From Antitrichia curtipendula (taxonomy: Eukaryota > Streptophyta > Bryopsida > Hypnales > Leucodontaceae): a stretch of DNA of 64,000 nt. Below, piece after piece: positions 32,553-58,953 of this stretch. Position 1 is the first letter of the stretch. Every line of letters begins with the position of its first letter. The stretch spans positions 26,988,696 through 27,052,695 of the forward strand of contig OX579638.1 in the NCBI GenBank assembly GCA_951230915.1, read 5' to 3'. A program made the translations under genes and the position numbers. The notes beneath the pieces were generated by a model. The model was not told where the DNA came from. It saw only the letters and a list, made by a program, of their open reading frames with translations, and did not search any database.

Positions 32553-32560
32553 CTCAGTAG
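32553..32560 (+). repeat. 8-bp target site duplication, left (CTCAGTAG)
   Basis: Identical to 58946-58953; the bases abut the CAGGG tip exactly. Confidence 0.88.
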
Positions 32561-32756
32561 CAGGGTTGTTCTGCGTGACCTGGCGACATCGCGACAGACA
32601 GACATCACGCGACATCCAGGAGACCCTCCGCGACGTCACATAAAGTCAAATTTACCTTTGACCTTTCAAAAAATTACCCCCTTTTTACCTAAGCTACGTG
32701 GATGCCATGTGGCGTCCGCGTGGTACATTTTAGGGGCGCATGCGGGTGTGACGTGG

Positions 32757-32945
32757 ACGGGCGACTTCGGGTACACAGCGACCGCGGGTAGGGGCGACTT
32801 CGTGTTAGGGCGACCTCAGGTAGGGCGACCTCAAGTAGGGCGACTTCGTGTAAGGGCGACCGCAGGTAGGAGAACGCAGGTGTAGGCGACCTCGGGTAGG
32901 AGAACACAAGTATGGGAGAATGCGGGTAAGGGAGACCGCGGCTGA
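32757..32945 (-). repeat. Left subterminal motif array (GGCGAC orientation)
   Basis: About eight copies of GGGCGAC(C/T)(T/G)C followed by RGGT, spaced 12-22 bp, beginning about 200 bp inside the left tip. The orientation is opposite to that of the right array at 58443-58735, as expected of subterminal transposase-binding repeats. Confidence 0.8.
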
Positions 32946-32949
32946 GGCG

Positions 32950-33147
32950 AACGCTCGGACCCGCGGTCGCCTCCTTTTGGACCCGAAGTCGCCCTATTCG
33001 ACCTGAAGTCGCCCCTCCTAGACCCGCGGTCGCCCATATTGGACCCGAAGTCGCCCCCTCCTGGACCCGCGGTCTCCCAAGCTGGACCCAAAGTCGCCCA
33101 GAACACATGCTCAAAGAAGCGTACCCGTGCTCGCCCACCTATATATC
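32950..33147 (+). promoter_or_regulatory. Promoter of the RING-H2 gene: GTCGCC array plus TATA box
   Basis: Seven copies of GGACCCGCGGTCGCC or GGACCCGAAGTCGCC type in the direction of transcription, alternating between the CGCG and CGAA versions at about 24-bp intervals. A TATATAT box follows at 33140-33146, inside CGCCCACCTATATATCC. Transcription would start near 33170, which puts the coding ATG at 33308 after a short leader. A small out-of-frame upstream ATG lies at 33219. Confidence 0.75.
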
Positions 33148-33307
33148 CATGCGCCCGTACGGTCTTCTTCACCTTCATTCTCCACTTTGGCTCTCTGTCT
33201 TGTATCCTTTATTGGCTGCATGCGTGATCCCTGTGTTGAATGTTTACTTCTTACTTTTCATTCATCCCAGCTTGTGTTATCGCAAGTTCTCGACGTACAG
33301 AGATTCC

Positions 33308-35779
33308 ATGGCTACCGGAGGCAACAGTGAGGGGTCACTTCCTCTTCCTCAGACAACGCGCACTCTTGGTTGCTTGAGCAAGGCTGCCAAAGACAGGACT
33401 CGGAAGCGCAAGGGCACCATTTATAAGAAGCGGTTACATGTATTGAATAGTGAAAATCACATTGCTTTTAAAGGGTGGAACGAGGAGCCACAGCCATGGA
33501 CAATGCAGACCTGCGAAGACTACATCGAATGGTGTCACATCAGCAAGATGTTTCCGGCGTGGCGCCATTATCACAACCGTCACACTAACAAGGCAAATAT
33601 GAAGCATTGTGAAAATGCAGACTTCACTCAAAGGTGTATAGAATTGTGGCAGGCTATTTATAAAACTCCCAACGTAGACAGGAATGAAGTACCTCTCTTC
33701 ATCGCTAGAGGAGCATATGCTGAGGTGGCCCTACAAAAGGTCGATTGGAGCACAGTCAAGGAAACTACATACGTGGCACGTCCAACAAGCGGATCAATAC
33801 CAAGAGGTGTTATGGCTTTTCCAGACGGGGGACTTGGGCCTACTCGAAGTGCTCCTAGAAACAGAATAGCTACTGAAGTTCACAATGATGATTCCAATGA
33901 AGATCCTGATTCTGACGGTACGCGGAAGCCAAACATAGGACAAGACAAAGAAGACACTGTGGGCCCCGCCAAAGTTCAGATTGAAAATGATAAGGATCGT
34001 TCAGCGTCACAAGGTCAAAGAGTGAAAAACCTCCCGAAGGTGCGACGTTCAACCACGCGAATTGGGCCAGGATCAACTTCAACAGCAGGTCCGCATCCAC
34101 CGTTGCCAGCACAAGATGCCAACAACGTCTTCGAATTTGGTCCAAGCGATGACATGCCCATGGGAGCAGTTGTTCGTGCTTCCATCCCTCAATCTAGAGT
34201 GACTCGAACTGACAACGCTATGACTCTAGCTAAGGCTCTCGACCTCCTAAAGACCAAGGACATTAACATTGCTTTGCTGCAAAGCAATGTCAGGAAGTTG
34301 CAATCTCAGTGTGCACACAAAAATCGTCTCCTCTCTCAACAATCTATAGAATTACAACGCCTCAGAGACAAAATACAAGACACTTTTACTTTGTCGGACA
34401 TGGATGATGCCTTTCTTGAGCCGGATTCACATCATTTGGACAAGGTTGTAGGCGACCTCACCGATGATTTGCTTCACCATTCTCCTGTTGCCAAGCGTGC
34501 CAAGCATTCTTCAATGACTCCAAATGCGCTTCTTACGGCAATTCTGGAAGATACTACCAAAAATGATCTCCAGGAGACCCAAGATTCACTCTCGTTTCCT
34601 GTGATTCCTCATTCCGTACAGTCACAATTGAGATTGGATCTCGAAAAAGAAAATAGAATGCTTCGAGATCAATTGTCACAGTTGGGGGCCACATACTATC
34701 ATTGGAAGGTCGCGTGTATCCTCTCAGTGGACAGAGCACAACAAGTTGCAAAGGAATTGGAGAAAATTTCAAGAAACTTCGTTGCACAAGAGCCTAAACG
34801 AGAGTGCGGTCTCACGTCATGGGCATTGATGGAGGACATGTTCCCCACTAACATGGACTTGGCGGAAAAGACCGACACTGATTGGACAGAAAATGGTTGG
34901 GACCACAAAAAACAAATGTCCAGCCATATCGAAGTGGAGGAAAAAAAGCTACTGTGGCCACATCCTGCACCCTTTGTTTTGGACCACACCAAATGTCCCA
35001 TATGTCTAGAGCAATTTGGTCCCGAAGGTGGCTGGGCACTTGGATCATGTACACATGTGTACCATCCTCAATGTCTCATCACGCACTGTTTGATTAAACG
35101 TCGTTGCGTTTTGTGTTCAGTACCATTCCATGATCGTTTGTACACCATGTTCAACTTGACGACTAACATGCCTCCTTCTTGGGAACACAGCAGTGATACC
35201 ACAGAAGACACCAGAATGTGGGGACGAGACTTGCTCTGGAGCTGGAGACAAGGAAACCATGATTTGGAAAAGGGAGTTGCTAGTTCCCAATCGAATTGGG
35301 AAACAGATCTGGAAGAAATTGCCAGAGTTGGAGTCAAGTTGATGGGAAAAGGGCCACAAGGCGAAGGGAGGAGGGCATTCTTCTACCAGTGCCTTGGTGG
35401 ATATTTCAATAAGACCTCCGGAACCTTCAATTGGGGTCCTCATCCACAACGACACCGTTGGAATTTTCAAGGACTGAGGGTGGCCAATCAAGATGCAACG
35501 GCCTCCATAGATGAATTGGACAGCATGTCTTACTTAGACTCTGTATACGGGCCTTATTACCAAACTCAAGCCCTCGACTATCTGTTGGAAGAACACTCTC
35601 CAAAGATCACAAAGACCCTCGAAGCTCTAAAGAATTCCAAAGTCCTGGATTCCATTTTGAAGGCGGACGGACCAGCTTCACGAACTCGTGCCAAGCGTAA
35701 GCTTGATGTTGGGGAGTCATCCACCTACGAACGTGGCGAAGGAAGTGGTTCTCAAAACGACACAAATGTTATCATCTAA
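33308..35779 (+). CDS. Novel N-domain, coiled-coil, RING-H2 protein (hAT cargo)
   Basis: Fully open 823-codon frame, intronless; the ATG at 33308 is chosen for its CCATGG context and position after the TATA box. Residues about 30-160 form a domain shared with the genes at 40546 and 47644: a basic start, FKGWNEEPQPWTM, EWCHISKMFP, then NEVPLFI and VDWSTVK. After it come an acidic Ser/Asp linker and heptad-rich helices at about 300-360 and 440-490. At 563-603 is a RING-H2 finger (C-x2-C...C-T-H-x2-H-x2-C...C-x2-C), suggesting E3 ubiquitin ligase activity. The C-terminal 220 residues contain a Trp-rich region (RRAFFYQCLGGYFNK, GTFNWGPHP) of unknown type. It may modify host or transposition proteins; that is inference. 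It is the only cargo gene without a stop codon or insertion. Confidence 0.82.
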   Translation: MATGGNSEGSLPLPQTTRTLGCLSKAAKDRTRKRKGTIYKKRLHVLNSENHIAFKGWNEEPQPWTMQTCEDYIEWCHISKMFPAWRHYHNRHTNKANMKHCENADFTQRCIELWQAIYKTPNVDRNEVPLFIARGAYAEVALQKVDWSTVKETTYVARPTSGSIPRGVMAFPDGGLGPTRSAPRNRIATEVHNDDSNEDPDSDGTRKPNIGQDKEDTVGPAKVQIENDKDRSASQGQRVKNLPKVRRSTTRIGPGSTSTAGPHPPLPAQDANNVFEFGPSDDMPMGAVVRASIPQSRVTRTDNAMTLAKALDLLKTKDINIALLQSNVRKLQSQCAHKNRLLSQQSIELQRLRDKIQDTFTLSDMDDAFLEPDSHHLDKVVGDLTDDLLHHSPVAKRAKHSSMTPNALLTAILEDTTKNDLQETQDSLSFPVIPHSVQSQLRLDLEKENRMLRDQLSQLGATYYHWKVACILSVDRAQQVAKELEKISRNFVAQEPKRECGLTSWALMEDMFPTNMDLAEKTDTDWTENGWDHKKQMSSHIEVEEKKLLWPHPAPFVLDHTKCPICLEQFGPEGGWALGSCTHVYHPQCLITHCLIKRRCVLCSVPFHDRLYTMFNLTTNMPPSWEHSSDTTEDTRMWGRDLLWSWRQGNHDLEKGVASSQSNWETDLEEIARVGVKLMGKGPQGEGRRAFFYQCLGGYFNKTSGTFNWGPHPQRHRWNFQGLRVANQDATASIDELDSMSYLDSVYGPYYQTQALDYLLEEHSPKITKTLEALKNSKVLDSILKADGPASRTRAKRKLDVGESSTYERGEGSGSQNDTNVII

Positions 35780-36299
35780 ACATTTTTGTTCTTTGTTTAC
35801 GTGAACATCTTTTTGCATAATAGTATACGTGTTGTAAGGCCCCTAGCATATGGTCATACTATATCTACACTAGCAATGGCAAGCAGTGTTTAGTAGTTTT
35901 GTTTTTCTTCTTCGATTCCACTTCTGTGGCTTCGTTTTCTAATTTATACTTATGTACTGCAATTTTATATTGCTTTGGTTTTCAATATATACTACCTTGC
36001 CTTTCTTGTTTAAAAATGAGGCCATCCATACAAAATTTGGAAATCATCATCAATATTTAATTCTAAACCGATGCAACCCAAACTATTTTCTGCTTCACTT
36101 ATTCAAGTACATTGTTCAAAAATTTGTGATTCATCATTCTAGCCAATTGCCAGTTCAATGTGCCTAAAATTGAAATTGTACACTTCTCTACCTTGTATTG
36201 ATGGTGAAGTAATGTCGTCCAACATTTATAGAAAAAAAAACGTACGTCTTGTAACTTCTGCAATTCAATGAATAAGTAGGAAAACGGGTTCACAATACA
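35780..36299. other. Spacer after the RING-H2 gene
   Basis: AT-rich 3' flank of the gene; nothing else recognised. Confidence 0.5.
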
Positions 36300-39100: not shown

Positions 39101-40546
39101 CTAAGTGCTAAAAACAAAGTCGCTTTCAATGGGACCCGGCCCCATTGCGTCCACCTCTGCCTCTGTTTTTCCTATGGTACTCATCTGAAACTTCCGCCAT
39201 TCTTTGAGAAAATAAAGTTCAGATTCCAAATGGCGTAGCGATTCTTGTACCGCCATTGCATTCATGGAGTGTAGCTTCACCAATGAACGAAGCCTTGCCA
39301 CTTCTTCAGCACTGGTACTTGGCTCATGTTCAACAGCGGCGATGCAATATTCTTTTTCTTTTTTCTTTATTGCTACATCGAGGTCTCGCCTTTCATTCTC
39401 GTAAATCCAACGTTCACGTTCCAGGAGATCGCGCTTTGATTGCCATACCACATACTCGTCCATGTAGTGCACCCTTCCACTTTCACGCTGCCTGAAATAA
39501 AAATCACGATTTTTTTCCAAATCCTTCAAGTACTTGTCGTTTTCTTGGATGCTTTTTGTTACTCCCTCCAACTGCTTCTTCAAATCATCTACGACAACGG
39601 GACCCACTTGTACTGAGAGTTCATTCTCATTTAATTGACGGAGTTCATTCATCTTCTCACGCAAAGCAGATCTTACACTTGCCGCCTTGACACTCAACAA
39701 CTCTATGTCGTCTTCCGAATCGCTTCCATCAACGCTGCGGTTCCGCTTTAGAACAACATGTTCCACTTCCATAGGCCCTGCATCTTCCATGCCTTGCACA
39801 TCAACGTGGGATTCTGTGATGGGCTCGTCAACCTTTATTTTTCCCTTCCTATCTATTTCCAAACCCAAAGCCTTGTTCATGACTTCCATGAGAAAATCGT
39901 CATCATCACTGTGGAAAGAATATCCATCGTATTCATGGGTGTGTTCATCTTCGCTAGAAGTCGCCGACCACACTACATTTTCATCAGAAATGAAAAACTT
40001 CCCAGGCTTTGCCGATGTCACCGATTCCTTCACATCCGGCGCTACATCTGCCCAAGGAATACTTGATTCTCCTGGATGGGTCCCGATTGGAAGATCCTTA
40101 ATGCTTGACCAATCCACCTCTTTCTTCAATACAACTTCAACATACACCATTCCTGCAAGAAAGAAAGAAAAATTGTCGTTTCGATACGTTTGTAGGCCTT
40201 TATAGAGTTCCTTCCACACCTCGCAGCATCTTTCTTAGAAGGCTCTGTTCTTGCAATATGCAAGATTTACCTTGTTCGACTTCAAGTAGAACTTGTGACG
40301 ATACAACGGAAATAACTTGTCGATGTGGCACCAATCCACATATTTCTGAACCGTCTTATAAGTCCAAGGCGTGGGTTCATCTCTCCAACCCTTGAAAGCC
40401 TTAATCTTCGGATGGATCAAGATGGCCTTGCGCTTCTTGTGGATTTTTCCTTTCTTTTTTCGATCCTTGCCTCGAAGCGCCTTGGACTCTTTTCCAGCTT
40501 CTGATCTCGGTACAACAGGTGGCGAAGGTTGGGCCTCCTCTTCCAT
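39101..40546 (-). CDS. Second paralogue of the novel N-domain/coiled-coil family, one in-frame stop
   Basis: About 481 codons. Start ATG at 40546 (MEEEAQPSP), the first ATG in frame after a well-formed TATA box at about 40711. The shared N-domain lies at about 35-150: KIKAFKGWRDEPTPWTYKT, WCHIDKLFP, then SFFLAGMVYVEVVL and VDWSSIK. An acidic stretch follows, then long charged helices (predicted coiled coil) to the end; there is no RING finger. A TAA at 40237-40235 falls inside the N-domain (RAF*ERCCEVWKELY), where the paralogues have Thr or Val, and the frame continues unchanged on both sides. So it is a young pseudogene unless the stop is read through. The neighbouring kinase-like gene is on the same strand with its own promoter. 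Confidence 0.75.
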
Positions 40547-40627
40547 CGCAATACACAGGAATATTCCTTCCCCTGATGCCAAAATGATCAAAATACGCCC
40601 TCCAAAACTCTGACCCCTAGCTCACGA

Positions 40628-40880
40628 GCAAGCACTCAGCCACTTCAAGGCGGATGAGAGACAATGCGCAAAGCCAGGAGTGGAGAACGCGGGTGATGGG
40701 CGACCTCTTATATACCCGATGTCGCCTGGGGCGCGTATGGAGGGCGACTGCGGGTCCGAAGGCAGGTGAGGGCGACTGCGGGTACCAGGCGACCGCGTGT
40801 CCAGGGCGACCGCGTGTCCAAGCGACTGCGTGTCCAGGGCGACCGCGTGTTCAGACGACCTCGTGTCCAGGGCGACCGCA
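40628..40880 (-). promoter_or_regulatory. Promoter of the second paralogue: GTCGCC array, TATA box, conserved leader
   Basis: On the minus strand: repeated GACACGCGGTCGCC-type motifs (40880-40740), then GGGTATATAAGAGGTCGCCC with the TATA box at 40708-40715. A leader block follows that is closely similar to those at 43510-43600 and 47465-47550 (TTCTCCACT, GCGCA(T/C)TG, TCATCCGCCT, GCTGA(G/A)TGC). The motif orientation relative to transcription is the same as at the other promoters of this element. Confidence 0.78.
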
Positions 40881-40892
40881 GTGGCCCCTTGT

Positions 40893-41846: not shown

Positions 41847-43430
41847 CTACAAAATTGAGTCACGGAAAACTACTTCCGGGGGCTTCATGTACCACGGTTT
41901 ATCCATGAGCAACTTTGTAACCTCAATACATGTCGGTCTCTTCTTTGGATCAGGGTTAGTGAGTTCACCCAACTTGATGGCAAAGTACATGGATCCCTCG
42001 CGCCTCTTAAAAAAGTCCGTATCGTATTCGACCATATTAAGAAGATTCATCCATTCGGTCAACTTTCCAATAGAATACGAGTCTGATTGCACTGTATATT
42101 TATATTGTGATTGCATAATCTCTAGGCTCGTACTGGAATTTCGTGGACCAAACGTATAAAACAACTCCGGAGCCACCCACCAACGGCTTTGTAAGGATTG
42201 CTGCTTCTTCTCCTCAGAATCATATCCATAATGTGAAGGAGCTCCTTCATCAAAACGACTTGAAATTCCGAAATCACAAATCCCGATGTTGATTACTTCA
42301 TCCGAATAATCGGGGAAATGCAGCAGTATATTTTGAGGGTTTAGGTAATTGTGTAGCACCAAAGACTCGTGCATGAGATGTGTCACATACACTAAAGCCC
42401 ACGCCAACTTTGCCTTGTGCCTTCGGAACAAGCTAAAATGTTTTTGATTGTCCTCTGTAAGTTTCCACACCCGCTTCATTTCATGCTAGTCAACGTTCTC
42501 TGATACCTTCTCATCCAATCTTCGCATTTCAAGCCATGTACCACCATTCCACCACAATGTGTACGCTTCCATAGTTTTGGCGTGAATACCAAAAAACTTA
42601 ATAATGCCAGGATGGTTTACGGGGCATGCCAAGGCCTCTACGGATCGTTGCTCCCTCGCTTCACGCATGTTCTTTGACTTTGGCACTTTCCCAGCAAAAG
42701 CAACGTATGGCGGGATTGTTTGCATCCCTTCAATGTGCACCTTGCGCACCATTCCATACCCACCTTGACGGTCAAATCCAGTGAGGGCAATTACTTTTGC
42801 CTGAGGAGAGATCCATGTGACAGTGGAGCCAGCCTCTCGTGCAAAACCCGCCTTCAATGCGTCCGTTTTCCACTTCATACCCCTCACATGATTCTTCGAA
42901 AGTTTCTTCACAACTTCATGCCACCACGCCATCTTTTCACGGAATTCCTTGGCTTCATCATCTCCTGCAAATCCCGGCACTTCCGGTCGCATCTGTAGCA
43001 TTATTTCCTTGGTGTTGAATATGCATGTCTTTACAGTGTTTTCAATCCACAATTCGTATTGGGAAAAGTACGTCTCCTCCACGTCTCCAAAATCTTGCGA
43101 TGCTCTGCACTTGCTTAAAATTCTTGCCTCCAAATCAGCAGTCAATTTGAAGATGCCATGGGATGGGTCCCTTAGGTAATTGGCCTCCAAGAACTGTGTA
43201 GTTTTTCCCGCATACCAGGACAGGCAACCCTCAAATGCATAGTTTGCATAATTGGAAGGAGGATAGGTTGAATCCTTGTCATGTGCCGTTATGATTTTCT
43301 TCTTCCTCTTCGTTTGCCCTTCACTCCCTGTTGCCTCACTAACAGGTATCTGCAGAGCAAACAATGCCGCATCATCTAAATCAAAAATGGATTTCCGTGT
43401 TGAGCTGCTGCCTTTCTGTGGATTAGCCAT
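41847..43430 (-). CDS. Kinase-like protein with degenerate catalytic loop (hAT cargo), one in-frame stop
   Basis: About 527 codons from ATG at 43430 (MANPQKG). Residues 1-200 form an unknown N-terminal region. The kinase-like domain follows: a glycine-rich loop GGYGMVRKV, a Lys in VAFAGKV, the segment NHPGIIKFFG, a catalytic-loop position reading HNYLNPQN where active kinases have HRDLKPEN, an intact DFG (ICDFGISS), WWVAPELF in place of the APE segment, and DSYSIGKL for helix F. Loss of the HRD Asp suggests a pseudokinase or an unusual mechanism. A TAG at 42488-42486 (NVD*HEMK) separates the N and C lobes in the same frame, so this copy cannot give a full protein without readthrough. The promoter is shared in type with the N-domain genes. 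Confidence 0.75.
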
Positions 43431-43504
43431 TGTGGTCGGAAAAAATACTCACGTTGCTTTCTTCAAGTTCGTAGTTGAGAGAAGCAAAAACTCCCCCCCT
43501 CGTA

Positions 43505-43808
43505 CCAACTCACACCCCCTGGCCCACGAGCACGCATTCAGCCACTTCGAGGCGGATGAAAGGCAGTGCGCAAGGCCGGAAGTGGAGAATGCGGGTTGGG
43601 GCGACTTCTTAAGTACTCGCAGTCGCCCTGGGGCGATTGCGAGTTCCAGGAAAGGGCGACCGCAGGTTCCAGGAAAGGGTGACCGCTGAACTTGGGCGAC
43701 CGCGGAACCAAGGCGACCGCGGGTCCTTGCCGACCGCGGAACTTGGGCGACCGTGGGTTCAGGCGACCGCGGAACCTGGCCGACCGCGGGTCTTGGGCGA
43801 CCGCGGGT
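43505..43808 (-). promoter_or_regulatory. Promoter of the kinase-like gene: GTCGCC array, TATA-like box, conserved leader
   Basis: Minus strand: about eight copies of CCGCGGTCGCC or CCGCGGTCGGC type (43805-43660), then GCGAGTACTTAAGAAGTCGCC, where TACTTAAG at about 43608-43616 takes the TATA position. A leader close to that at 40628-40700 follows (CATTCTCCACTTCCGGCC, TTTCATCCGCCTCGAAGTGGCTGA in part). Confidence 0.75.
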
Positions 43809-43829
43809 TTTCTCCCCGTCTTGTTGTTT

Positions 43830-45234: not shown

Positions 45235-46160
45235 CCCGCGGTCAACCAAGACGAGGTCGCCCCAATCCCGCGGGCGCCCCAAACCCGAAGTCTCCTACAT
45301 TCCTTCATTTGGGCAGAAAGGGACTCTCCCTACTCAAGTTCTACAATGATCCGAGTTCTCCAATGATCCCCCATTTGGGAAGGAAGAAACGGTCTATCCC
45401 CACCCGAGGTCACCCAAGACCCGAAGTCTCCTCCATTCATTCAATGGCTCCCACACCCACCCGAGCTCTTCCAAGACAAGAGGTCGCCCAAAGCAAGAGG
45501 TCCCCCAAGACAAGAGGTCGCCCTCTATCTGCGGTCGCCTAGACCCGAAATCGCTCCTTCAACGCAAAATTCGACCAATTTTGAGACATGAAGTAAACCC
45601 ACACCCACCCGAGGTCGCCCAGGACAAGAGGTCGCCCTCTATCTGCGGTCGCCTAGACCCGAAATCGCTCCTTCAACACAACATTCGACCAATTTTGAGA
45701 CATGAAGTAAACCCACACCCACCCGAGGTCGCCCAGGACAAGAGGTCGCCCTCTACCTGCGATCGCCTAGACCCGAAATCGCTCCTTCAACACAACATTC
45801 GACCAATTTTGAGACATGAAGTAAACCCACACCCACCCGAGGTCGCCCAGGACAAGAGGTCGCCCTCTACCTGCGGTCGCCTAGACCCGAAATCGCTCCT
45901 TCAACACAACACTCGACCAATTTTGAGACATGAAGTAAACCCACACCCACCCGAGGTCGCCCAGGACAAGAGGTCGCCCTGTACCTGCGGTCGCCTAGAC
46001 CCGAAATCGCTCCTTCAACGCAACATTCGACCAATTTTGAGACATGAAGTAAACCCACACGCACCCGAGGTCGCCCAGGACAAGAGGTCGCCCTGTACCT
46101 GCGGTCGCCTAGACCCGAAATCGCTCCTTCAATACAACATTCGACCAATTTTGAGACCAA
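45235..46160 (+). repeat. GTCGCC-motif array with a 114-bp tandem repeat
   Basis: 45235-45470 holds irregular copies of CCCGAGGTC and CCCGAAGTC motifs. From about 45500 a 114-bp unit repeats 5.7 times, with unit starts at 45581, 45695, 45809, 45923 and 46037. Each unit has GAGGTCGCCC, GAGGTCGCC, GCGGTCGCC and GAAATCGCTCC plus the spacer TTCGACCAATTTTGAGAC. Because 114 is divisible by 3 the array is open over about 260 codons (38-residue repeats), most likely a side effect of the period. No TATA box or known gene follows; it may be a promoter array whose gene was lost. Confidence 0.8.
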
Positions 46161-46394: not shown

Positions 46395-46970
46395 CTAATT
46401 GAAAGGCCTAAGGCATGTACAAGTGAATAGCAAAGTAATACAATGTCAATAGTGAATTATAATTTGGTGCAATGTAAAAGGTCTTCTCAAACCCTAGACC
46501 CTAGATCCTAGATCCTAGACCCTAATACCAAGTTTATTAATTTTGTATGCCATGCCTAGAGTTATGTAATCCCACTTCTTTTGCTTCTTTATGAAGAAGT
46601 CACCTAAATATATAGAAGTGACATCCATGTTTTATTTTTCATTGTGAATTTTTTTCAATTCAACGGCCTTTCCCTTTATATGTAATTTTGAATAAAATGA
46701 AGTAAATGGTACATGACTAACATGAATGGTGGAGGAGAAAGTAATAAAATGAGGAATGGATTTATTAAACCTCCATCCATTAGACCCCACATGGCCTATC
46801 TTCCACATTTTGGTGATGAAAAATCTTAGTGGTCTTGTAGAACCTTACTAAATTTTTAATTGTGGTAGTTGACATGTTTTCCTCAAAATTCATTTCAAAG
46901 TGTACCATGAGCTTCCAAAATTAGATTTAGGAAGTGAAAGATTTTGATCTCTCTACCCGTGGTCACCATG
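46395..46970. other. Spacer upstream of the third paralogue
   Basis: Contains a short CCCTAGATCCTAGA reiteration at 46488-46525 (telomere-like only in part). No gene. Confidence 0.5.
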
Positions 46971-47550
46971 CCTTGGATTCCATGAATTTCAAGCTTGAAT
47001 TTCCCTCCTTTCTGGACAAGAGGTCGCCCCACCCGCGGTCGCCCCTGCCTTGGATTCCATGAATTTCAAACTTGAATTTCCCTCCTTCTTGGACAAGAGG
47101 TCGCCCCACCCGTGGTCGCCCCCACCTTGGATTCTGGGAATTTGAAACTTGAATTTCCCTCCTTCCTGGACCCGAGGTCGCCCTACCTGAGGTCGCCCCT
47201 AACTTGGATTCTGTGAATTTGAAACTTGAATTTTCCCTCCCTCCTGGATCCGCAGTCGTCTCACCCGCGGTCGCCCAGGCCTTGAAGTTCATGAAATTCA
47301 AAGCTTGAATTTCTTCCCTTCTGAATCCGCAGTCGCCCTGAACCCACGGTCGCCCTGAACCCGCGGTCGCCCTGGACCCGCGGTCGGCCTGGACCCGCGG
47401 TCGCCCTGTCTTGCGTACGCGCCCGGATCCGTACTCGCCCAGGGCGACTTCGGGTACATAAGAGGTCGCCCCCTCCCATTCTCGTCACTTTCAATTCCAG
47501 CGCTACGCACTGTCTTTCATCCGTCTCAGAGCGGCTGAATGCGTGCTCGT
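46971..47550 (+). promoter_or_regulatory. Promoter of the third paralogue: 77-bp repeats with GTCGCC motifs, TATA-like box, leader
   Basis: Four to five tandem units of about 77 bp (starts near 46973, 47050, 47126, 47203 and 47280). Each has CCTTGGATTC, GAATTTSAAACTTGAATTT and two GTCGCC motifs. They are followed by a dense run CGCGGTCGCCCTGGACC, then GGGCGACTTCGGGTACATAAG with TACATAAG at 47455-47462 as TATA-like box. The leader 47465-47550 matches those of the genes at 40546 and 43430 (CTGTCTTTCATCCGTCTC, GGCTGAATGCGTGCTCGTG). Confidence 0.78.
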
Positions 47551-47643: not shown

Positions 47644-48816
47644 ATGGACGCTAACACGAAAAAGATTAAGAAGAAAGGAGATAGCCAACATAGAAACCGT
47701 CGCATCTTTCTTAATCCAGGGGCTGTGGCATTTCAAGGTTGGGATCGAATCAACGGAGATTGGACGATGGTGATTTGCAAGAAGTTTGTGGAGTGGTGCC
47801 ATATTGACAAGCTATTCCCTTTTCATCGACACAAATTGCATCTAAAGATGAATGCTGCAAATCTACATTACTGCAAGGATGTCGCATTTGTGCAACATTG
47901 TATCGAAGTGCATCGACATTTGTACAACACACGAACAGTGGTCAGGAGCGAGGTCCCGTTGTTCATTTGTCAAATGGTGTATGCAGAGCTAGTCTTGGCG
48001 CGAACGGTAGATTGGACTACCGTCAAGGCATCGAAGCTTATCACCATTCCAAGAGCCAAAGACATTCCGAGGGCGGGTCCCTCCGCTAATCCATGGGACG
48101 GGCTAGGAAAGAAGAAGTTGATCCAAACAGGGGTGGCGGATGAAGAATACGTGTGGTCAACTCATGCGAGTTCAGCTAGCAAAGAAAGCTCGGATGAAGA
48201 ACTTACCTCGGGCGCTCCTATGGATGCAATGGAAGTAATCCCATTGGATGTTACCCCACTTCAGGTTCATCATCCCGAAAACGATGAAGTATTGCAACAT
48301 GTGTTTGCATGCATCCAAATAGAAGCACTTGATAGACTGGATGGAGAGATCGAAACAGAGGAGGAGGAGGTGGTGCCGCCTTTGTTGGCATTGCCTTGGG
48401 TGGAAGAAGTACCGGCAATGGAAGAACACGTTGAAGGTTCCTATCGTCGAGATACCACGAAAGCCAAAAAACAGTTTTACAAAGAGAAACTTCATCAGCT
48501 TCTTGAAGATTTGGCAAGGACAGAGGAAGCATGTCAAAATTACAAAAAGAAGACTGTGGAAACTTTTGATGGTGAATATGTGTCCACCCTCCAAGCAAAA
48601 ATTGAAAGTGGGCAAATCTGTTTGGCCGTGCAAGCTAGAGAGATAGCAGACCTGGAGGCATTTTACCGGGAATTTTCCGGTGGTCCAGACGGAGGGCCTA
48701 GCGCTGGCGGCAGTGAGGAAGCCAAGGCTCGGCTTTCCAAAATTATAGAAGATTGTGTCGCAGCACAGGATAAGCAATTCCCATGTTATACTCCCAAAAA
48801 CCACTCTAAAGCATAA
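47644..48816 (+). CDS. Third paralogue of the novel N-domain/coiled-coil family, 3' end displaced by an insertion
   Basis: Open frame of 390 codons from ATG 47644. The N-domain at about 20-140 has VAFQGWDRINGDWTM, EWCHIDKLFP, EVPLFICQMVYAELVL and VDWTTVK. An acidic region follows, then a coiled coil at about 270-350. The last authentic codon is about 48771; after that the frame runs into the inserted 3.4-kb element and ends 15 codons later. The original C-terminal part lies beyond the insertion at 52168-52575. No RING finger is seen in either part. It is expressed, if at all, from the array promoter at 46971-47550. Function unknown; the conserved WCHI...FP core may bind DNA or a partner, but nothing in the sequence proves it. 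Confidence 0.8.
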   Translation: MDANTKKIKKKGDSQHRNRRIFLNPGAVAFQGWDRINGDWTMVICKKFVEWCHIDKLFPFHRHKLHLKMNAANLHYCKDVAFVQHCIEVHRHLYNTRTVVRSEVPLFICQMVYAELVLARTVDWTTVKASKLITIPRAKDIPRAGPSANPWDGLGKKKLIQTGVADEEYVWSTHASSASKESSDEELTSGAPMDAMEVIPLDVTPLQVHHPENDEVLQHVFACIQIEALDRLDGEIETEEEEVVPPLLALPWVEEVPAMEEHVEGSYRRDTTKAKKQFYKEKLHQLLEDLARTEEACQNYKKKTVETFDGEYVSTLQAKIESGQICLAVQAREIADLEAFYREFSGGPDGGPSAGGSEEAKARLSKIIEDCVAAQDKQFPCYTPKNHSKA

Positions 48817-48819
48817 CAA

Positions 48820-48892
48820 AGTGACTCTAAAGATCGAACCCACGAGATTCTGTGAAGTATCTAGCCTTATTAACGAACTAAGCCAAGTCAGT
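48820..48892 (-). tRNA. tRNA-like relic inside the insertion
   Basis: 73 bases on the minus strand with an acceptor stem pairing 6 of 7 (ACTGACT/AGTCACT), a D-stem GCTT/AGGC, an A-box-like TTAGTTCGTTAATAAGG and a B-box-like GGGTTCGATC. The anticodon loop CTTCACA would give TCA, but the stem is imperfect and the T-stem is mostly wobble or mismatched. Probably a decayed tRNA-derived piece (as in SINEs) rather than a working tRNA. Confidence 0.35.
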
Positions 48893-49938
48893 AGTAATAT
48901 CCATCTTTTCCGGTCCTCTTTCTATGACCGGAAGTTCAAACACCCAAAAAACAAAGGACCGGATTCTTTCTATCTTCCGATTCCAGCTAGTCTTCTGGTT
49001 ATTGAATCCAACACAACCCAAGGACCCTATCTCTTTCGGTCCGGGTATCCGTCTAGGCCAATCCGCTCTAGACAACTCACAACCATTTCCTCTCCTATCC
49101 GGTTTGGTTTTACCTCTGTTTAGCCATCAGAGGGTTCGCCGCTTGCTTTTGAGAGTGGTAGGCCCACCACACCTTCCGTGACTTATAGTGGCTGAAGACC
49201 CACTTTCCAAATCTCTTCCTTCCTAGGCTAGTACGGATCCGGTTTGGTCCTTCACAGCAATCCAGATTGCAATCCGGTCCACTGGTCACACAAAGACCCC
49301 CCGTACGATCCTCTCAAAACTACAACGACCCTGATGTCATCCTATTCCGTGCGAAGCTAAGGCGGTTACAAGTGCACCCGTCCATTCCAACATCAACTAG
49401 AATTCTTCCGTTTACTGTTAAGATGGTGAGACCTCACAGGAGATCGGACACTCAACCGGATTTCTCACCCAGGAGTTCTAGCGCGACTAAGGACTCCCTC
49501 CCTATCCGCCTAGCCTAACAACGGCTTTCTCACCCGGAATCTCAAACTCTAGACGCGCTGAGGCACTGAAGTTCACTCCCAACTCTATCCTATCCGCTCA
49601 CATGCACTTAGAACCAAGAAAACACCAAGGGGAGAAATCCCATCGCATCCGCTCGCGCCTTCCGAACTCCCTCACGCACAATCCTGCCAAGACATGGGAG
49701 ATCGTGCAACAAAGAAGCACAAGGAGAAAACACAAAGAAAGATACAGAGGGAAAGACTCCCAGTCCTCAGCACAAGGACTGAATTATATACACTTGGAGA
49801 ACTTCCAAAAATAATAAAAGGCAAAAAGAGCCGTTAAAAGTCAACCTAAATCCGGATCCTAACTTTCGGTCCTTCTAACACTACCGGATCGGATTACTTA
49901 ATCCGGATTCGTTCCTATCCTATCCTTCCTAACTTATT

Positions 49939-51579
49939 CTACATCGCTACCCCGCGCCCCAACGAAGGACTCTTGGGCTCCGCCTCCAATTGCTCGAAGA
50001 CTTCTTCCAAGTTCCTATTCCGCTCTCCGGCCATCGGATCTGGCATGTCAGAACCGGGAGAGTCTTCGATGTTGATCGGCGCGGTCTGGAAAGGCTGACT
50101 CGGCTTTGACTGCGGAGTCTGGTCCCTTCCTTCCCTTGGGTCTGGCACTTCCGGAAACGATTCCGGCATGGAGATGTCCGATAGGTGGACCCTCATCGAT
50201 CCGGTCAGCTTCTGTGTACACTCCTCCATCCGGTCCGCCACTCCTCGTGCTAAGACCAAATTCTTCTCCACCTGCTCGGAGAAGTCAGTCAGGATCCGGA
50301 CTATCCGGGTACCGGATAGTTTCTTCTCCTCCAAGACCTTCTCGTCGAAGAGTCTGGCCCTGACTGCCATGCTTCCGGTCTCTCCGAAAGTCGCCTTTAC
50401 CGATTCCGCCACCTTTTTCGTCTCGTCCGCCATTATCCAGGTGGCGGCCATATCTTCCTTGAAGGTGGCCACTTCCGCCTTCAACATGTCGACCTCCTCT
50501 TGAAGTCGACGGATCTCTGCTTCCTGCTTCCGGATCTCGACCGGATTGGTGATGCACTCCGCTACCTTCCCTGGCAACTTGCTATCCGGTGTTGCCTGCA
50601 CCAACTTTTTGATCTGGATTAGGGCGATTCTCTTCGCCTCCCAGTCCAGGCGGATGTCGACGAGGATCTTCACCAACTTCTCGAACGGGTCGACCGGTCA
50701 CTTCTTCAAACAGCCTACCTTCTCCCCTTCCGGTGTCTTCTCCTTTCCGGTTTTATCACCGAGTGGAGATCCTCTTCCGGTCGGAGACGTCGTCTTGTGC
50801 CGCTTGGGCTGCCTCTCCGCCTCTTCTTCATCTTCTTCTTCTTCGGTCTCGGATCCGGTTTCCTCTTCCTCCTCGTCCGTTTTCGATTCTCCGTATTTCA
50901 GGAGATTTTCCTGGGCCTTCCACTCCTTCTCTTCCGAGTCTAAAAGGAGCTGGTGTTGCTCATAGAGGTGGAAGAGGTAGGGACACACGGGTGTCGGCCT
51001 ACTCCTTCCGACCCTCGTCGCCAACTGGACCACCAGATCGAACATGATCCGGGCCCAGTCCGCTTTCCGGTCACCGCTCAGGGCACCGAAAATAGTGTTG
51101 CCGAGGGTGATTGTCACCCTTGTCGGCTTCTCCGGATGGAGGATCGGGATCAGGAACTGTAACAGTTTTCGGTGCCGGTCGTCGATGCAGTCTTCCACCG
51201 CGTATCCGTCCTTGGGGTTGACCGCTCCTCGGAACTTGCCCCGGACGTACTCGTCCTTCCGGTTTGCCATCCCGTGGCCTCCTGCCCGGAACTTATAAAC
51301 CTCCCTCCAGATCTCTTCCGTCCATTGATGTGGAACACAGCGGATCGTGTTGTTGAACTGGTTCGTCCACTTCCCCTGGATCTCCTTCACCATCCGCTTG
51401 TCCTTGAAACCCCAAGGTTTGTCGAGCAAACCCTGGCACCCCATCCGGTTGAGATCCAACCGGAGCATCTCCATCTCCTCCTCTGTCAAAGGGAGAACCG
51501 GAACGACCTTCCGGAGTTTGGCCGGAGCCGATGACGTGGATGGGCCTGGTCTGTTCCGCCTAAGCTGCGGCATGGACAC
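49939..51579 (-). CDS. Unknown two-part protein of the insertion, one in-frame stop
   Basis: Part one, 51579-50698: 293 residues with a globular region (WTNQFNNTIRCVPHQW, GNTIFGALSGDRKADWARI, PICPYLFHLY-like PVCPYLFHLYEQH) and a long Glu-rich tail with a basic KRHK segment. Part two, 50700-49939: continues in the same frame after a single TGA (LKK*PVDPFEKL) with about 250 residues that are mostly coiled coil, then a Pro/Ser/Asp-rich tail. The protein resembles repeated hypothetical proteins of plant mobile elements, possibly a Gag-like structural protein, but I cannot assign a family. No zinc knuckle, RT or transposase motif is visible. Codon use is CG-rich, unlike the cargo genes. Confidence 0.6.
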
Positions 51580-52167
51580 AGACTAGATCTAAGACAGTCC
51601 TTTCCGATTCTACCTCACACAGTCCTAGCCGCACGTCCCGTTCTCACGTTCTCTCTCCGATCTCAACCGGAAACCTGCACAGCGATCGGTACGCAACCGG
51701 AAACCTACCCTGCAACACACCTCTAACACTCGCACACTCTCGTACACACGCGAACACTCACACAGCGCCGAAACACGAGGAGCGCGACAAAACACTCTCA
51801 CCAAACGGAGTTTGGAAAAAGGAGTGCGACTGAGGAGGTGCTGGCTTTTTATAGTCTCTCCTGACCTAAAAGCCGTCATGATGACGTTTACCGGTCCGGT
51901 CCCACCAATCCGGTCTAACCCTAATCCGGTCCACTAACCCTAATCCGGTCCACTGCTACTTCCGGCCAAGGATCCGATTCCAATCCGGTTCCTGGGTGTC
52001 ACCACTAGGATTGGATTTGTTCGAACTACTCCACTATTTCAATGTCTTTCCTAATTTTCCGTCCTCTGCTGTTTCTAGACAAAACCTATATACTAATCGA
52101 TAGTTTCCGTTCCGTTTTCTAGATAAACAACTGAAAACCAAAAATTCGGACTGCGACAGATTGCAGG

Positions 52168-52575
52168 ATGGAAGAAGATCGGTACATTACTGCAAAGAGA
52201 AGTGTGGAGGAAGGACGGTCAAGGATAATTCACCTGACCGAAATCGGGGATCAGGCCCCTCTTGATCGTGTCTCCGAATTTGATGCCTAAGATGTAGATA
52301 AGCTATATGGGACACCGCAAGCAGAAGTAGCCGACTTGAAGAAGAAGTTAGCTACTTGTCTCTCGTTGGAAGAGAATTTGCAACGAAGCGTGCATCAGTT
52401 GAGCCAACACATTGATTTATCCAAATCGTGGAGAAAAGCTTGGAGGCAAGGTTACTTTAAGAGCTTTGGGCAACGTAACATCGCATATCTGAAGAGGGTA
52501 GAGAACGAGGTGATGGTCGAGCTGGAATCCGAGAAAAAGAAAAGAGAAGAGAAGGACAAGAAGGATATTGCATGA
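52168..52575 (+). pseudogene. Displaced C-terminal part of the third paralogue
   Basis: Open frame beginning MEEDRYITAKRSVEEG, broken once by TAA at about 52288 (SEFDA*DVDKLYG), then helix-rich and ending in a Lys/Glu tail (KKKREEKDKKDIA). It lies directly after the right CAGGAT duplication and has the charged coiled-coil look of the family C-terminus. Joining across the insertion at CAGGAT would not keep frame, so a small indel or a lost splice site must also be involved. Confidence 0.5.
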
Positions 52576-54235: not shown

Positions 54236-54289
54236 CTAAAAAGAAAAAAAAAATTGCACACATGCTTACCCATGGACCATGGTCGCATT

Positions 54290-54448
54290 CTACTGGAGTC
54301 GCGGTCGCCCCAAAAAAAGACGTGCAGTCGCCTGGCGGGCACCCGAAGTCGCCCTTCATGGGACCCGCGGTCGCCCCCTCAGCCTGTACCCGAGGTCGCC
54401 TCTGTACCCGAGGTCGCCCTCACCCACAACCCCTCTTGGACTATAAAG
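54290..54448 (+). promoter_or_regulatory. Promoter of the hAT transposase: GTCGCC array plus TATA box
   Basis: Six motifs in the transcription direction (GCGGTCGCCCC, GCAGTCGCC, CCGAAGTCGCCC, CGCGGTCGCCCC, CGAGGTCGCC twice), then GGACTATAAAGCC with TATAAAG at 54442-54448. The ATG at 54676 follows after about 200 bases. The motif is the same as at the cargo promoters and both element ends. Confidence 0.75.
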
Positions 54449-54675
54449 CCTGAAGGGCAACCATTGCCTCTCATCTTGCTCCGGTGATAAAGCTCTTGTC
54501 TTGAATCCTCTAAAGAGGCTTCCTGGGGACGTTTAGGTTCTTCGGAGGGCAACAACCTAGCTTTGAGAGGTTCATAGGACCACTCTTGGCGGGTGGCTTT
54601 GTCATTACTTCTTTTGATTGGTCCGGTTTTTTCGATAAAGTAATTTTTCTGTGAGACCCATTGCGGATCTACAAG

Positions 54676-57600
54676 ATGGCTGGCCGAGGTGGTGGGAGGA
54701 CAACGCCTGCTAACGATACACGTAGGGCCACAAAGGAGTGCAACCCTTGGCTCATAACGTGCACTGAAGGTGATGCCTCCTTGTATCCAAAGAAATGCAG
54801 ATTCTGTGGGTGGAGCACAGTATTTGTACGGAAGAGGGCATTGACTCACTTTGGATTTGGTGCCACACGTAGACAGGATCTCTGTCAACGTATCCCTCCA
54901 AACGTATTGGAAAAATTTAGGAACTGTATGGGGGTTGTTCCAAAATTCATGAGCTACGAAGAAATGTACGATGCGCTGATTGCACTCAATGCAGATGATG
55001 GTGTTGTTGGGCCCCTTATTGGGCCTGAAGTGGAGGTGGATTTTGAAGGGTCCGGGGACCCTAGTCGTACGAATGAACCATCGACTCCTAATCCAGACTC
55101 AGTAGATTCTACTCCAGCGATAGTGGAGAGAAGGAGGAATGTGCCTTCCATTTCCCGTCAAAGAAGTATGGATGAAGCACTGCAATTGGCCCTTCGACAG
55201 AAGTTAGATAAAATGTGGGCTTCCTTTTTTTATGAAGCCAACATAGCCTTTAACGTCGTGCGACATCTTGCGTTTATGAATGCAGTGAAGGAAACCGCTA
55301 TAGCTGGATTTGTGTATCAACCGCCATCATACAATGCAGTGCGCACGAAAATGATAGATGTGAAAAAGGCAGCTGTAGAGAACATGGTCTCCCAGCGGAC
55401 GAGGAACTCTATTGACCAGTATGGAGCGACTATTTGTTCAGATGGATGGTCTGATACCAATACTCGTCCTTTGTTGAATATGATGCTCGTATGTCCTGCT
55501 GGGGATGTTTTTTTGGGCTCGGTGGATAGCACAGGGGTGAGGAAGGACATTGCCTACACCACGGATATTATGGCACAATACATAGACCAGGTTGGACCAT
55601 TAAACATTGTTCAACTATGTACAGACAATGCCGCAGTAATGACAGGGGCCATGACAAGGTTGCAAGAAATGTACCCTCACATGTATAAACAAGGGTGTGC
55701 AGCACACATTTTGGATTTACTTTTGGAAGACTAGGGAAAAGAAAAGAAGGTGACTGAATTGGTGGAGGACTGTAGGAAAATTTGCACGTTCATCAAAAAA
55801 TATCAGCTCACTTTGGCTCTGTTTCGGAAATATTCATTGAACAAGGTGTTGAGACTCCCTGCCTTAACGCGGTTTGCTTGCAACTTCCTCATGGTAGATC
55901 GTCTCGTGGATTGCAAGGAGGCGTTGCACAACGTGATTTTGGATGAGACGTATGCGCCTTTTGAGATGAGTTTGTTTCAGCGGAAGAATGGACACATAGT
56001 TCAAGGACGAGCCGTGCGTGCAAGACAAAACATTCTTTCAGAAGCGTTCTGGGTGAAATGTGAGAATTTTCTGCACATGGTACAGCCTGTGCTCGTTGCT
56101 CTTCGAGTGTTTGATGGAAAGATCCCGGCAATGCCCAAAGCTTTGATGGTGATGCAGAGCTTGAAAGAGCACGTGTACTCTTTGAGGAATGAGCCTTTTT
56201 TTCTAGACCCCGCGATTGCAGACAAGTACAAGAAGCAGTTTGACGCTCGTTGGAAATTGATGCTCACAGATTTGCACTATGCAGGTGCACTATTGAACCC
56301 ATATTTGCTTGATATAGCAACCATTCAAAACAATGGCGAGGCCAAATCTGCCTTGAATCGAGTCATACGAAAACTCAGCGAGCCATTGGGAGTGTCACCC
56401 ATGGAGGCAATGAGTGAGCTTGTGGAATTCAAAGAAAAAACAGGTCCATTTGACCCTTTGATGGAGGCTCCTGATATCACTCAAGGTACACTACTGCCCC
56501 ATCAGTGGTGGAACCATGTGGGTGGTAATGCTCTCCCGAAAATTGCAAAGAGAATTCTATCTTTGACATGCTCAGCATCTTCATGCGAAAGGAATTGGAG
56601 CATGTATTTGTTTGTACACAGTAAAGTGCGAAATCGCCTGGCCACATCCAAGGCGGAGGCATTGGTGTATATTTACGCCAATAGCAAGCTCGAACGTGAG
56701 AAACGTGGACACAATCCTGCCCTTTTTTACGATAAGTACCTAATGGATAGAGATATTGAGGAAGAGAACGAGGAGGCATTGTCTTCGGGTGACAAAGATG
56801 ACGTGGTTTCTAGAGTTGGTTGGGCTGCCGATAATCGTATGGAGGAAGAAGAGCGCTTGCATGAAAATCCTTGGGTTGGAATGATGCCTGCTGCTGTTGA
56901 CCTCCCGCCAAGACGACGTTACGGCCACACTTTTACGGATGGTAATGATGAGAACAATTCTGGTGAAGAGGAGCCCCTACGTACACCAGAACGGAATCGC
57001 GTCTTTGCATGGGATGAAGCTCCAACCGCATATTCACCGCTACCGAGGGAAAGAACTTTTGATGACAACAACGAAGGCGTACAAAATCCAGTGCCTGCAC
57101 CAGAAGAGCCTGCAAGATCTCCAGTACTAGCACATCCGTCTTCAACCATGCCAATAAATCTCCGGAGCGCTGCACGAGTTATTGTGGAAAGTGAAAGAGA
57201 AGAAGAGGCAGTACACATTGATGAGGTTGTACGTGAAGGGTGCCCAATTCCTGTAGTAGTGAATGCGCGTACCACCCGAATAACAGAAACGGTGGAGTAC
57301 GATTCAGATGTGCCTCTACAAGCTATTCTGAATTTGAATCGTAATGCACCCTTAAATCGAGGAGCAAGTCAGAGCGTGGCTACGGTCACAAGGTCTATTC
57401 CAACCCATCTGCCAAGGCCGCCGGTGCATCGAGGTCCACCACGGACCATTGATGAGGAAGTCCATGCCTCAGCTCCGCAACCCACTCAACCTTCATCAAC
57501 GTTAGCCCCAGGGGCATCATCATTGGGCACGCGTAGACACAACAATGGAGGAAGGAAGCGTATTAGGAGGGTTCACGAGGTGGTCCATAGAAATCCTAAA

Positions 57601-57951
57601 CGTCCAAATCAAGTTGTCCAACGGTTTAGTATGGGGGCGGAATGTTCCAATCAAAATGTCGGTCAATCAAGTGGAGGAGGGCGACACCATACACCCAACA
57701 CTGATGGAACCACGGACGTGTCGAGGCGCACGAAACGACTGGTGCAAACAGAGGGCGTTGCCGGTGTAGATACTGAAGTGCGGAATCTAAATTCAGAGGT
57801 AGAACGAGAGGTACGAAACGTACCAGTGCCAAGAGAAGAAGATGAGAACGAGAGCTCGACTGACAATGAGAATAGGGACGAGTCGCATGAAGATACAGAC
57901 CCCAACACCGATGAAGTGTCAAATGATGACAACTTTGATCCTAGTGAATAG
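54676..57951 (+). CDS. hAT transposase (DUF659, hATC), one in-frame stop
   Basis: About 1091 codons in one frame from ATG 54676. The N-terminal zinc finger (KKCRFCGWSTVFVRKRALTH) is BED-like. The DUF659 region at about 230-350 has CSDGWSDTNTRPLLN with the first catalytic Asp, LCTDNAAVM with the second, and C-x2-H in GCAAHILDLLLED. After a stop TAG at 55732-55734 the frame goes on with the rest of the core. The hATC dimerisation region (SASSCERNWSMY, KVRNRLATSKAEALVYIY) holds the catalytic Glu. A 380-residue acidic, disordered tail with an Arg/Lys patch follows and is longer than in typical hAT proteins. All catalytic residues are kept; only the TAG after LLLED breaks it, where related proteins often have Trp or Ile. 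It would cut at the CAGGG ends and probably bind the GTCGCC arrays (inference). Confidence 0.88.
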
Positions 57952-58442
57952 ATGTGGAGATAGTATAGTACTATTGTAAGGATTCAACATACGTTTTTTT
58001 GTATCGGAAATTTGTAGATGAAGATTATAATAGATTAATAGTTTATGTGTGACTTTTTTGTACATCCTCATATTAAAGTATGTGAGGCTGAGAAACATAT
58101 AGGAAGCTTTGAATTTTTTTGGAGTGTGTAGACTTTCACAAGCATTGGAATGGTGACCATAACAAAGTAGTAGGAAGTGCAATGCAATTACAACTTCATT
58201 TGTATACCCCGGACCTAACCCATATATATATGAGTTATTAATATAATTATAATAATTATTGTGGACTTGTATTGGATTTTGTGCATTCGTTCAAATGAGA
58301 GGAATTGAATTCTACATTTCATGAGGTATATTATTCAAAATTGCAAATTGTATAAGCCGTTATGAATAAGCGGCCAATGTAATGCTTTTTAAGCATGTAG
58401 TTTTAAGAAGATTTTAATAGATGTCATGTTCAATTACAGCAG
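57952..58442. other. 3' flank of the transposase gene
   Basis: AT-rich; no gene. Ends at the right motif array. Confidence 0.5.
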
Positions 58443-58735
58443 AGGCCACCCGCGGTCGCCGCCTGAATCCCCCCCAACCGCTGTTGCCTTTGGAACCGAA
58501 GTCGCCCCACACACGCAGCCGCAGTCGCCCACACACTGGGTACCCGCAGTCGCCCAGACACTAGAAACCCGAAGTCGCCCAACCCATCCTCCACCCGCGG
58601 TCGCCCATAGACATTGGATCCGAAGTCGCCCATACAGACCCGAAGTCGCCCCACTTATAGAAGCCGTAGTCGCCCTGGTTCTTGGACCCGCGGTCGCCCT
58701 GCCCCGATCCGCACTCGCCCTAACCTGCAGTCACC
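58443..58735 (+). repeat. Right subterminal motif array (GTCGCC orientation)
   Basis: About twelve copies of CCCGCGGTCGCC, CCCGAAGTCGCC or CCGCAGTCGCC spaced 18-25 bp, ending about 210 bp inside the right tip. It mirrors the GGCGAC array behind the left tip. No TATA box or gene follows, so here it serves the end rather than a promoter. Confidence 0.8.
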
Positions 58736-58945
58736 CAAGCTGACGTGGTTCTGTCTTTCCACGTCACTGCGGACAACCAGACACGTAGAACAAATCCATT
58801 TACCATGGGGTAAAAAACTTCCAAACCCTAAATTTTTTTGCGACGCATTTGTCGCCTATATTTGACACATGTCATACACGACACGCGACGCGACACGTCT
58901 AATACGTCACCGAAACCCAGAAACCCGTCCGACAAGACAACCCTG

Positions 58946-58953
58946 CTCAGTAG
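58946..58953 (+). repeat. 8-bp target site duplication, right (CTCAGTAG)
   Basis: Exact copy of 32553-32560, directly after CAACCCTG. Confidence 0.88.

Follow-up and report, generated by a model that had tools for sequence, protein, structure and literature searches.

Transposons of the hAT superfamily, such as Ac, Tol2 and Gulliver, are recognised by 8-bp target-site duplications, CAGGG-type tips, a transposase with DUF659 and hAT dimerisation domains, subterminal repeats, and gene-less non-autonomous relatives. We analysed a window of 64,000 nucleotides of the moss Antitrichia curtipendula (C6:26988696-27052695 in a 400.2-Mb assembly of 303 contigs), which contains a hAT element with all of these traits. 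The element is unlike its relatives in being about 23 kb long and in having five genes, whereas the relatives are usually several-fold smaller and carry only their own transposition gene. In the consulted part of one source, hAT elements are typically about 5 kb long, with a range of 110 bp to 7.1 kb (PMC6710886). The five genes of the moss element moved jointly as one hAT unit in the past, and they look like constant parts of the element rather than chance cargo.

Large hAT elements with genes besides the transposase have been described in fungi. The consulted parts of two papers give 14 kb for ToxhAT (PMC9594970) and 9.5 kb for a histone-H3-carrying element (PMC6710886). As far as those parts go, the additional genes are a captured effector and a captured histone, whereas the moss element has a recurrent, partly paralogous set with similar promoters. 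The Starships of fungi are also large mobile units with accessory genes. They are characterised by a tyrosine recombinase (DUF3435) and varied cargo, in the excerpt of PMC9594970 consulted, whereas here the enzyme is of hAT type and the gene set is recurrent. No DUF3435 captain was detected in the ten longer open reading frames (ORFs) scanned, nine of which lie in the element. A sequence-only reading of this DNA had presented the element as a plant counterpart of the giant cargo-carrying transposons of fungi; the comparison is apt for size only, as this element has a hAT enzyme and a gene set that varies little.

The VANDAL elements of Arabidopsis have a Mutator-type transposase; no such transposase was found here, where the domains are those of hAT. 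Their VANC proteins are anti-silencing factors. The Pfam matches of the RING family of the moss element are RING-type, plus two single weak ones. Both systems combine several element genes with non-coding motif arrays and a family-specific motif. The available excerpt on VANDAL describes short motifs in non-coding tandem arrays, including upstream of the transposase gene, and a motif that varies between families (PMC5735166). Motif arrays were likewise found in the non-coding regions of the moss element. Open-library literature searches returned no hAT element of this size with such genes; the review PMC6431247 contains no occurrence of hAT, and PMC13317346 none of hAT, moss or bryophyte.

The boundaries of the element in the window are the following.

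32553 to 32560, no strand: left target-site duplication, CTCAGTAG, read in the sequence.
32561 to 32569, plus strand: left tip, CAGGGTTGT; the 40 scored left-end matches start at most 2 bp from the tip or overrun it.
32561 to 58945, no strand: the whole hAT element in this copy, 26,385 bp, or about 23.0 kb minus a nested insertion.
58937 to 58945, minus strand: right tip, CAGGGTTGT inverted; the 40 scored right-end matches stop at most 1 bp from the tip or overrun it.
58946 to 58953, no strand: right target-site duplication, CTCAGTAG, read in the sequence.

The sequence-only reading had placed a perfect 8-bp duplication and inverted tips at these positions, and both are there. Its length of about 26.4 kb is correct for this copy, but the element proper measures about 23 kb, the other 3.4 kb being a later insertion of long terminal repeat (LTR) type. 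The further similarity that it had noted between the two ends is present but only modest beyond the tips (local score of 58 versus a maximum of 50 in 300 shuffles), and is aided by array motifs common to both. The 9-mer CAGGGTTGT and its reverse complement occur once each in the window; all copies read at their ends retain these CAGGG-type short terminal inverted repeats, some of them altered at one position. An 8-bp duplication combined with a 9-bp inverted tip defines two structures in the window, the other one being AT-rich (3955/9412). The looser 8+7 pattern occurred on average 4.7 times per shuffled window (30 shuffles), which extrapolates to about 0.3 for 8+9. Because about 0.3 would be expected per 64 kb, the bare 8+9 signature was not decisive, and the element was therefore tested through its copies in the genome. 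The same extrapolated rate is what speaks for the possibility that the two ends come from different smaller elements lying next to each other by chance.

We queried the genome with the left end (208 bp, the initial 200 bp of the element preceded by 8 bp of flank) and with the right end, and scored the 40 best of 336 and the 40 best of 335 first-look candidates, respectively. Scored matches other than the window itself had 95-99% identity, and their limits coincided with the tips or overran them by a few bases. Scored matches were paired by contig, strand and order, with a limit of 60 kb. The 40 + 40 ends yielded 20 pairs, against 0.15 expected for random right ends: one of 9,032 bp, ten of 22,750-27,525 bp (the 26,385 bp of the window included) and nine of 36-57 kb. 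The 8-mers flanking the pair were identical in 15 of the 20 (the window, C8:19129496, C3:5194252, and 12 of the 17 others fetched), and in C8:6723052 the duplication had a one-base difference after a one-base shift. For two copies a matching empty site exists. When the flanks of the 22,750-bp copy at C2:27166970 were joined, they matched another place, in L015, at 40 of 40 positions, and those of C8:6723052 matched window positions 49284-49323, within the LTR-type insertion, at 37 of 40. Another giant hAT copy sits within a member of the same LTR family as the insertion at 48756-52158.

From the end pairs, the identical duplications and the two empty sites it follows that units of at least 23 kb transposed. 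All seven other copies that were read in 10-kb tiles were collinear with the window, mostly at 96-98% identity, as far as the tiles resolve. These results refute a chance juxtaposition of unrelated ends, which we regard as extremely improbable, and bear out the single hAT transposon at 32553..58953 that the sequence-only reading had proposed. That reading had also named 33 kb and 54 kb as places where independent ends might surface. None was seen: the alignment is continuous near 33 kb in all seven tiled copies, one of which has a small deletion there, and near 54 kb in the five copies whose tiles reach that far.

Copies could also have arisen by segmental duplication or as assembly artefacts, and the flanks of C9:25378701 and C10:24005674 are alike but for one base. 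The 13 other loci with perfect duplications all differ in their flanks, however, empty sites exist, and every copy compared has private mutations, which makes this origin very improbable for the family. The pair C9:25378701 and C10:24005674 (L036/L037 and L046/L047; 23.6 and 36.3 kb), which has both flanks and the duplication in common, goes back to a single insertion that was subsequently duplicated or that lies in some other repeat, and was counted once. Two left ends in opposite orientation, about 3 kb apart at C3:50014641 and C3:50017832, may be the product of aberrant transposition. The copies differ from the majority sequence by 0.9-1.3%, which fits a single fairly recent burst; the family amplified recently within its own genome.

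Five genes and one nested insertion were delineated inside the element.

33308 to 35779, plus strand: gene for a RING-H2-type protein of 823 amino acids with a conserved N-terminal domain and a coiled coil; open here.
39101 to 40546, minus strand: paralogue 1, a coiled-coil protein with a related N-terminal domain and no RING match; in-frame TAA at 40235-40237, unseen in seven other copies.
41847 to 43430, minus strand: kinase-like gene of 527 codons; internal TAG at 42486-42488 and a catalytic-loop Asp changed to Tyr, neither of them in seven other copies.
47644 to 48755, plus strand: paralogue 2, first part, split by the insertion.
48756 to 52158, no strand: nested LTR-type insertion with antisense ORFs of its own, bounded by TG..CA; GATTG duplication at 48751-48755 and 52159-52163.
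52159 to 52574, plus strand: paralogue 2, last part, with one further stop here.
54676 to 57951, plus strand: hAT transposase of 1,091 codons with a long C-terminal tail; TAG at 55732-55734 here.

In the window copy, the transposase, the kinase and both paralogues are broken and only the RING gene is open. The transposase contains DUF659 and Dimer_Tnp_hAT domains (Pfam E-values of 7e-31 and 2e-7 on its two halves) and ends 994 bp from the right tip. The motifs DGW, CTDN, CAAH and CERNW, which we take to be the catalytic residues and motifs of hAT transposases, are present in the window frames and are invariant or nearly so across the transposase alignment (A2), so that the CxxH and ERNW motifs of hAT enzymes accompany the two domains. 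The sequence-only reading had described a hAT transposase with all catalytic residues 1 kb from the right end; domains, motifs and position stand, but the frame is not intact, being interrupted by the in-frame TAG.

Searches for relatives returned 23 sequences for the RING protein, 45 for the transposase and 24 for the kinase, and pattern-based scans of viral contigs detected no relatives of any of these three families. A total of 15 of the 23 RING relatives match at least 94% of the query, and the zinc-ligand cysteines are nearly invariant among the aligned RING relatives between families. A Pfam scan of the 23 RING-family members gave matches to eight RING-type families, together with weak matches to TMF_DNA_bd and ATG16, each in one member. 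The RING gene and the two paralogues are paralogous to one another. The catalytic loop of the kinase reads HNY in the window copy, where all seven other copies and 17 of the 18 relatives in the alignment have HND. The kinase family alignment (A3) further displays HND in place of HRD, CDWG in most relatives and an invariant YTLWWNG motif.

The nested insertion measures 3,403 bp and is missing from all five comparable copies. No internal LTR pair is visible in this TCCGG-rich unit, which has two antisense ORFs and a 5-bp duplication. The ORFs at 49.9-51.6 kb were rejected as cargo, as they lie inside the insertion. The AT-rich internal segments of the element were considered as recent insertions and also rejected, being common to the tiled copies that reach them; related pieces are also present elsewhere in the window, beyond the element, at 3.6-4.0 and 8.9-9.8 kb.

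We compared the gene content of the copies, as the sequence-only reading had proposed. Five of the seven tiled copies have the complete set in an unchanged order, from the RING protein through paralogue 1, the kinase and paralogue 2 to the transposase, and the other two are incompletely resolved. The RING gene was present in 16 of 17 other copies examined (7 tiled and 9 probed with 300 bp), the kinase in 13 of 14 (7 tiled and 6 others, with a deletion in one and the probe falling short of the whole gene in one) and the transposase in 15 of 16 (4 tiled and 11 further fetched regions, of which two were partly covered and one belongs to the tiled copy C6:1196297). The sole exception in all three tallies was a gene-less member of 9,032 bp. 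Among the 40 scored transposase matches (of 550 candidates; window included), 27 were followed by a scored right end at a distance of 969-1,035 bp, and for 20 a scored left end lay no more than 60 kb away. The earlier view that the RING-H2 gene, its paralogues and the kinase-like gene had moved as cargo is borne out for joint movement, but the near-constant gene set does not look like incidental cargo.

The ancestral state was assessed from stop codons in eight copies for the RING gene, the kinase and paralogue 1, in six for the first part of paralogue 2 and in five for the transposase. Every stop was private to a single copy and frame breaks fell at differing places; the ancestor was therefore open in all five genes. 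The copy nearest to intact is C2:33273770, with four stop-free accessory genes and an interrupted transposase. One of the 11 further transposase regions, C6:1196297 (L067), has a full-length uninterrupted transposase frame. In non-coding parts, C-to-T changes affected 22% of CpG, 21% of CHG and 5% of other cytosines, the mark expected from CG and CHG methylation in silenced copies. The naive ratio of nonsynonymous to synonymous substitution (dN/dS) was 0.44-0.56 across the genes, and was rejected as proof of selection, as a context-corrected null accounts for most of it.

The second distinctive component of the element is a set of arrays of a short motif with the consensus (ACCC)GNGGTCGCC and the core GTCGCC. 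The following arrays were located.

32757 to 32950, minus strand: left terminal array, GTCGCC toward the tip.
32957 to 33099, plus strand: RING promoter array, toward the gene; TATA-like box at about 33139.
40680 to 40883, minus strand: paralogue-1 promoter array; TATA box between inverted motif copies.
43590 to 43809, minus strand: kinase promoter array, homologous to the arrays of both paralogues.
45245 to 46157, plus strand: 114-bp tandem repeats bearing the motif; the number of units varies among copies.
46955 to 47480, plus strand: paralogue-2 promoter array.
54282 to 54418, plus strand: transposase promoter array, toward the gene; TATA box at about 54441.
58445 to 58735, plus strand: right terminal array, toward the tip.

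The mirror-image arrays that had been noticed inside the tips were recovered as (C)CCGNGGTCGCC arrays at both ends. The element holds 84 of the 89 GTCGCC/GGCGAC sites in the window, with five in the remaining 37.6 kb. Upstream of each of the five genes, an array in the orientation of the gene adjoins a TATA-like box. In every copy in which the gene start was found, 3-10 gene-oriented sites lie within 450 bp upstream, versus 0.07 (both strands) in the flanks. Sites in the opposite orientation numbered 0-1, except that the RING gene of two copies had four, because its upstream stretch extends as far as the terminal array. The kinase and both paralogues have homologous promoters, and the homology takes in an inverted pair of motifs on either side of the TATA-like box. 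Observed/expected CpG was 0.9-1.2 in the arrays; two coding regions reached 0.65-0.76, and the flanks and an AT-rich stretch 0.53-0.57. The high CpG density of the arrays was rejected as proof of protection, as array CpGs decay like others.

Subterminal repeats are a known trait of hAT elements (Ac/Ds), and the arrays might accordingly be read as no more than subterminal repeats to which the transposase binds, multiplied within the element by duplication and playing no part in promoters. The gene-less 9-kb member is in keeping with this, as it retains terminal arrays along with internal arrays that accompany no gene. What argues the other way is that arrays precede the five genes at a similar distance, gene-oriented and beside a TATA-like box, wherever a gene start was found, and that a related locus has a similar layout with another motif. 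At that locus (L001), a RING gene 37% identical to the one described here lies between two arrays of a different motif, of which the downstream one is shorter and leads on to ACAACCCTG, about 0.5 kb downstream; the contig covers one element end only. The layout recurs while the motif changes between families, GTCGCC here and GACGTCCGCGCCCC-type in L001, as far as the sequences of these two loci indicate. We consider a repeats-only role fairly unlikely, and it seems rather probable that the arrays are shared putative binding sites for an element protein.

The contig L001 belongs to AVDCRST_MAG81, a cyanobacterial metagenome-assembled genome (MAG) from a project that presumably sampled desert soil crust, and carries a gene of this hAT family; P0026, one of the transposase relatives, likewise bears the name of a Bacilli bacterium MAG. 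Both are probably contamination. The presumed source of L001 and the C-to-T decay at CpG and CHG sites together point to a land plant, probably a moss, as host.

Taken as a whole, we consider it highly probable that the copies represent an autonomous-type, multi-gene hAT family. An element of about 23 kb, with five genes that were open in the ancestor of the copies compared, moved whole to many sites and made 8-bp duplications there; C-to-T changes at CpG and CHG sites were then the main route by which the copies decayed. The sites recognised by the transposase would be the CAGGGTTGT tips together with the subterminal arrays of GTCGCC. The five promoters could form one element-wide regulon through the same arrays, under an element-encoded DNA-binding protein for which the transposase or a member of the RING/paralogue family is a candidate. 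The RING, paralogue and kinase proteins may aid expression, escape from silencing or transposition. More tentatively, the transposon might be organised like a small genome, with five genes, one cis-motif that also marks the ends and a single element-encoded coordinating factor. Such a factor would govern expression, escape from host silencing and transposition, and the system could conceivably be an independently evolved hAT counterpart of the VANC motif-array system with a family-specific code. Anti-silencing as its specific purpose is a possibility to which we would give somewhat less than even weight.

Several observations weigh against this account. Four of the 20 end pairs (C9:6316878, C3:20632741, C3:20510815 and C6:829542) lack matching duplications, the last being probably a mispairing, which is suspected because a nearer transposase lies between its ends; a further copy, C6:24539179, has both ends recognisable and differing flanks. 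As to gene content, C2:41057278 yielded four genes in its tiles (paralogue 2 partial) and its transposase from a genome-wide match, and C7:6490018 only the RING gene, paralogue 1 and the kinase in 30 kb. The 9,032-bp member (L075, C6:3419790-3428880) lacks all five genes and has perfect 8-bp duplications. Its ends are 88-95% identical, motif arrays stand at both ends and in the middle, and no ORF exceeds 133 amino acids among those listed; it is a non-autonomous relative. Certain transposase stops recur in two or three copies across the 11 further regions, and no copy with all five genes open was seen among those compared. Against a mutation-spectrum null, omega was 0.70-0.97, with p < 0.05 for the transposase only (p = 0.045, uncorrected), so that selection on the accessory genes within the family was not demonstrated by this comparison. 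CpG decay affected 72 of 950 cells in the arrays versus 208 of 2,820 in coding parts, 74 of 814 in other non-coding parts and 13 of 184 near the tips; it gives anti-silencing no support, in what is a weak test, as the copies may have been silent throughout.

The weak signal of selection and the gene-less member also fit a different origin of the accessory genes, in which a hAT element, like ToxhAT or Pack-type elements, would have picked up genes of the host and transported them with no benefit to itself. RING and kinase domains are also used by host genomes, and gene capture by hAT elements is known in fungi from the consulted parts of PMC9594970 and PMC6710886. Several findings speak against passive carriage: the identical gene content and arrangement of the five copies that are fully resolved, the homologous kinase and paralogue promoters that bear the motif of the tips, the mutual paralogy of three of the genes, the 37%-identical RING gene on L001 again beside such a tip, and the 15 of 23 RING relatives that match at least 94% of the query. 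We therefore regard passive cargo as unlikely; the accessory genes are probably element functions, rather than host genes picked up by chance.

Outside the element, the window contains further repeats. A retroelement at 10316-17197 has near-identical repeats whose order is swapped (10316-10444 corresponds to 17069-17197, and 10444-10826 to 16672-17054); it reads as Ty3-type from its ORFs and looks as if it were permuted or flanked by a 129-bp duplication. A segment of 232 bp (18876-19107) is 97% identical to its own reverse complement, and a tandem repeat of about 222 bp is present in 4.5 copies at 61268-62268, with a hairpin-like CCCGAAAGCTTACGCCTTCGGG. Three adjacent minus-strand open frames of 226-248 codons (28363-30369) may be pieces of another decayed element.

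The element stretches the size and gene content reported for hAT transposons several-fold, and its many closely related copies make the outcome of transposition directly visible. This suggests that plant cut-and-paste elements can hold a stable multi-gene programme, beyond a transposase or randomly captured fragments. The motif arrays offer a testable case of an element protein co-evolving with its own promoter code, which bears on escape from silencing. Where plant annotations list RING and kinase genes of this type, these may belong to such elements.

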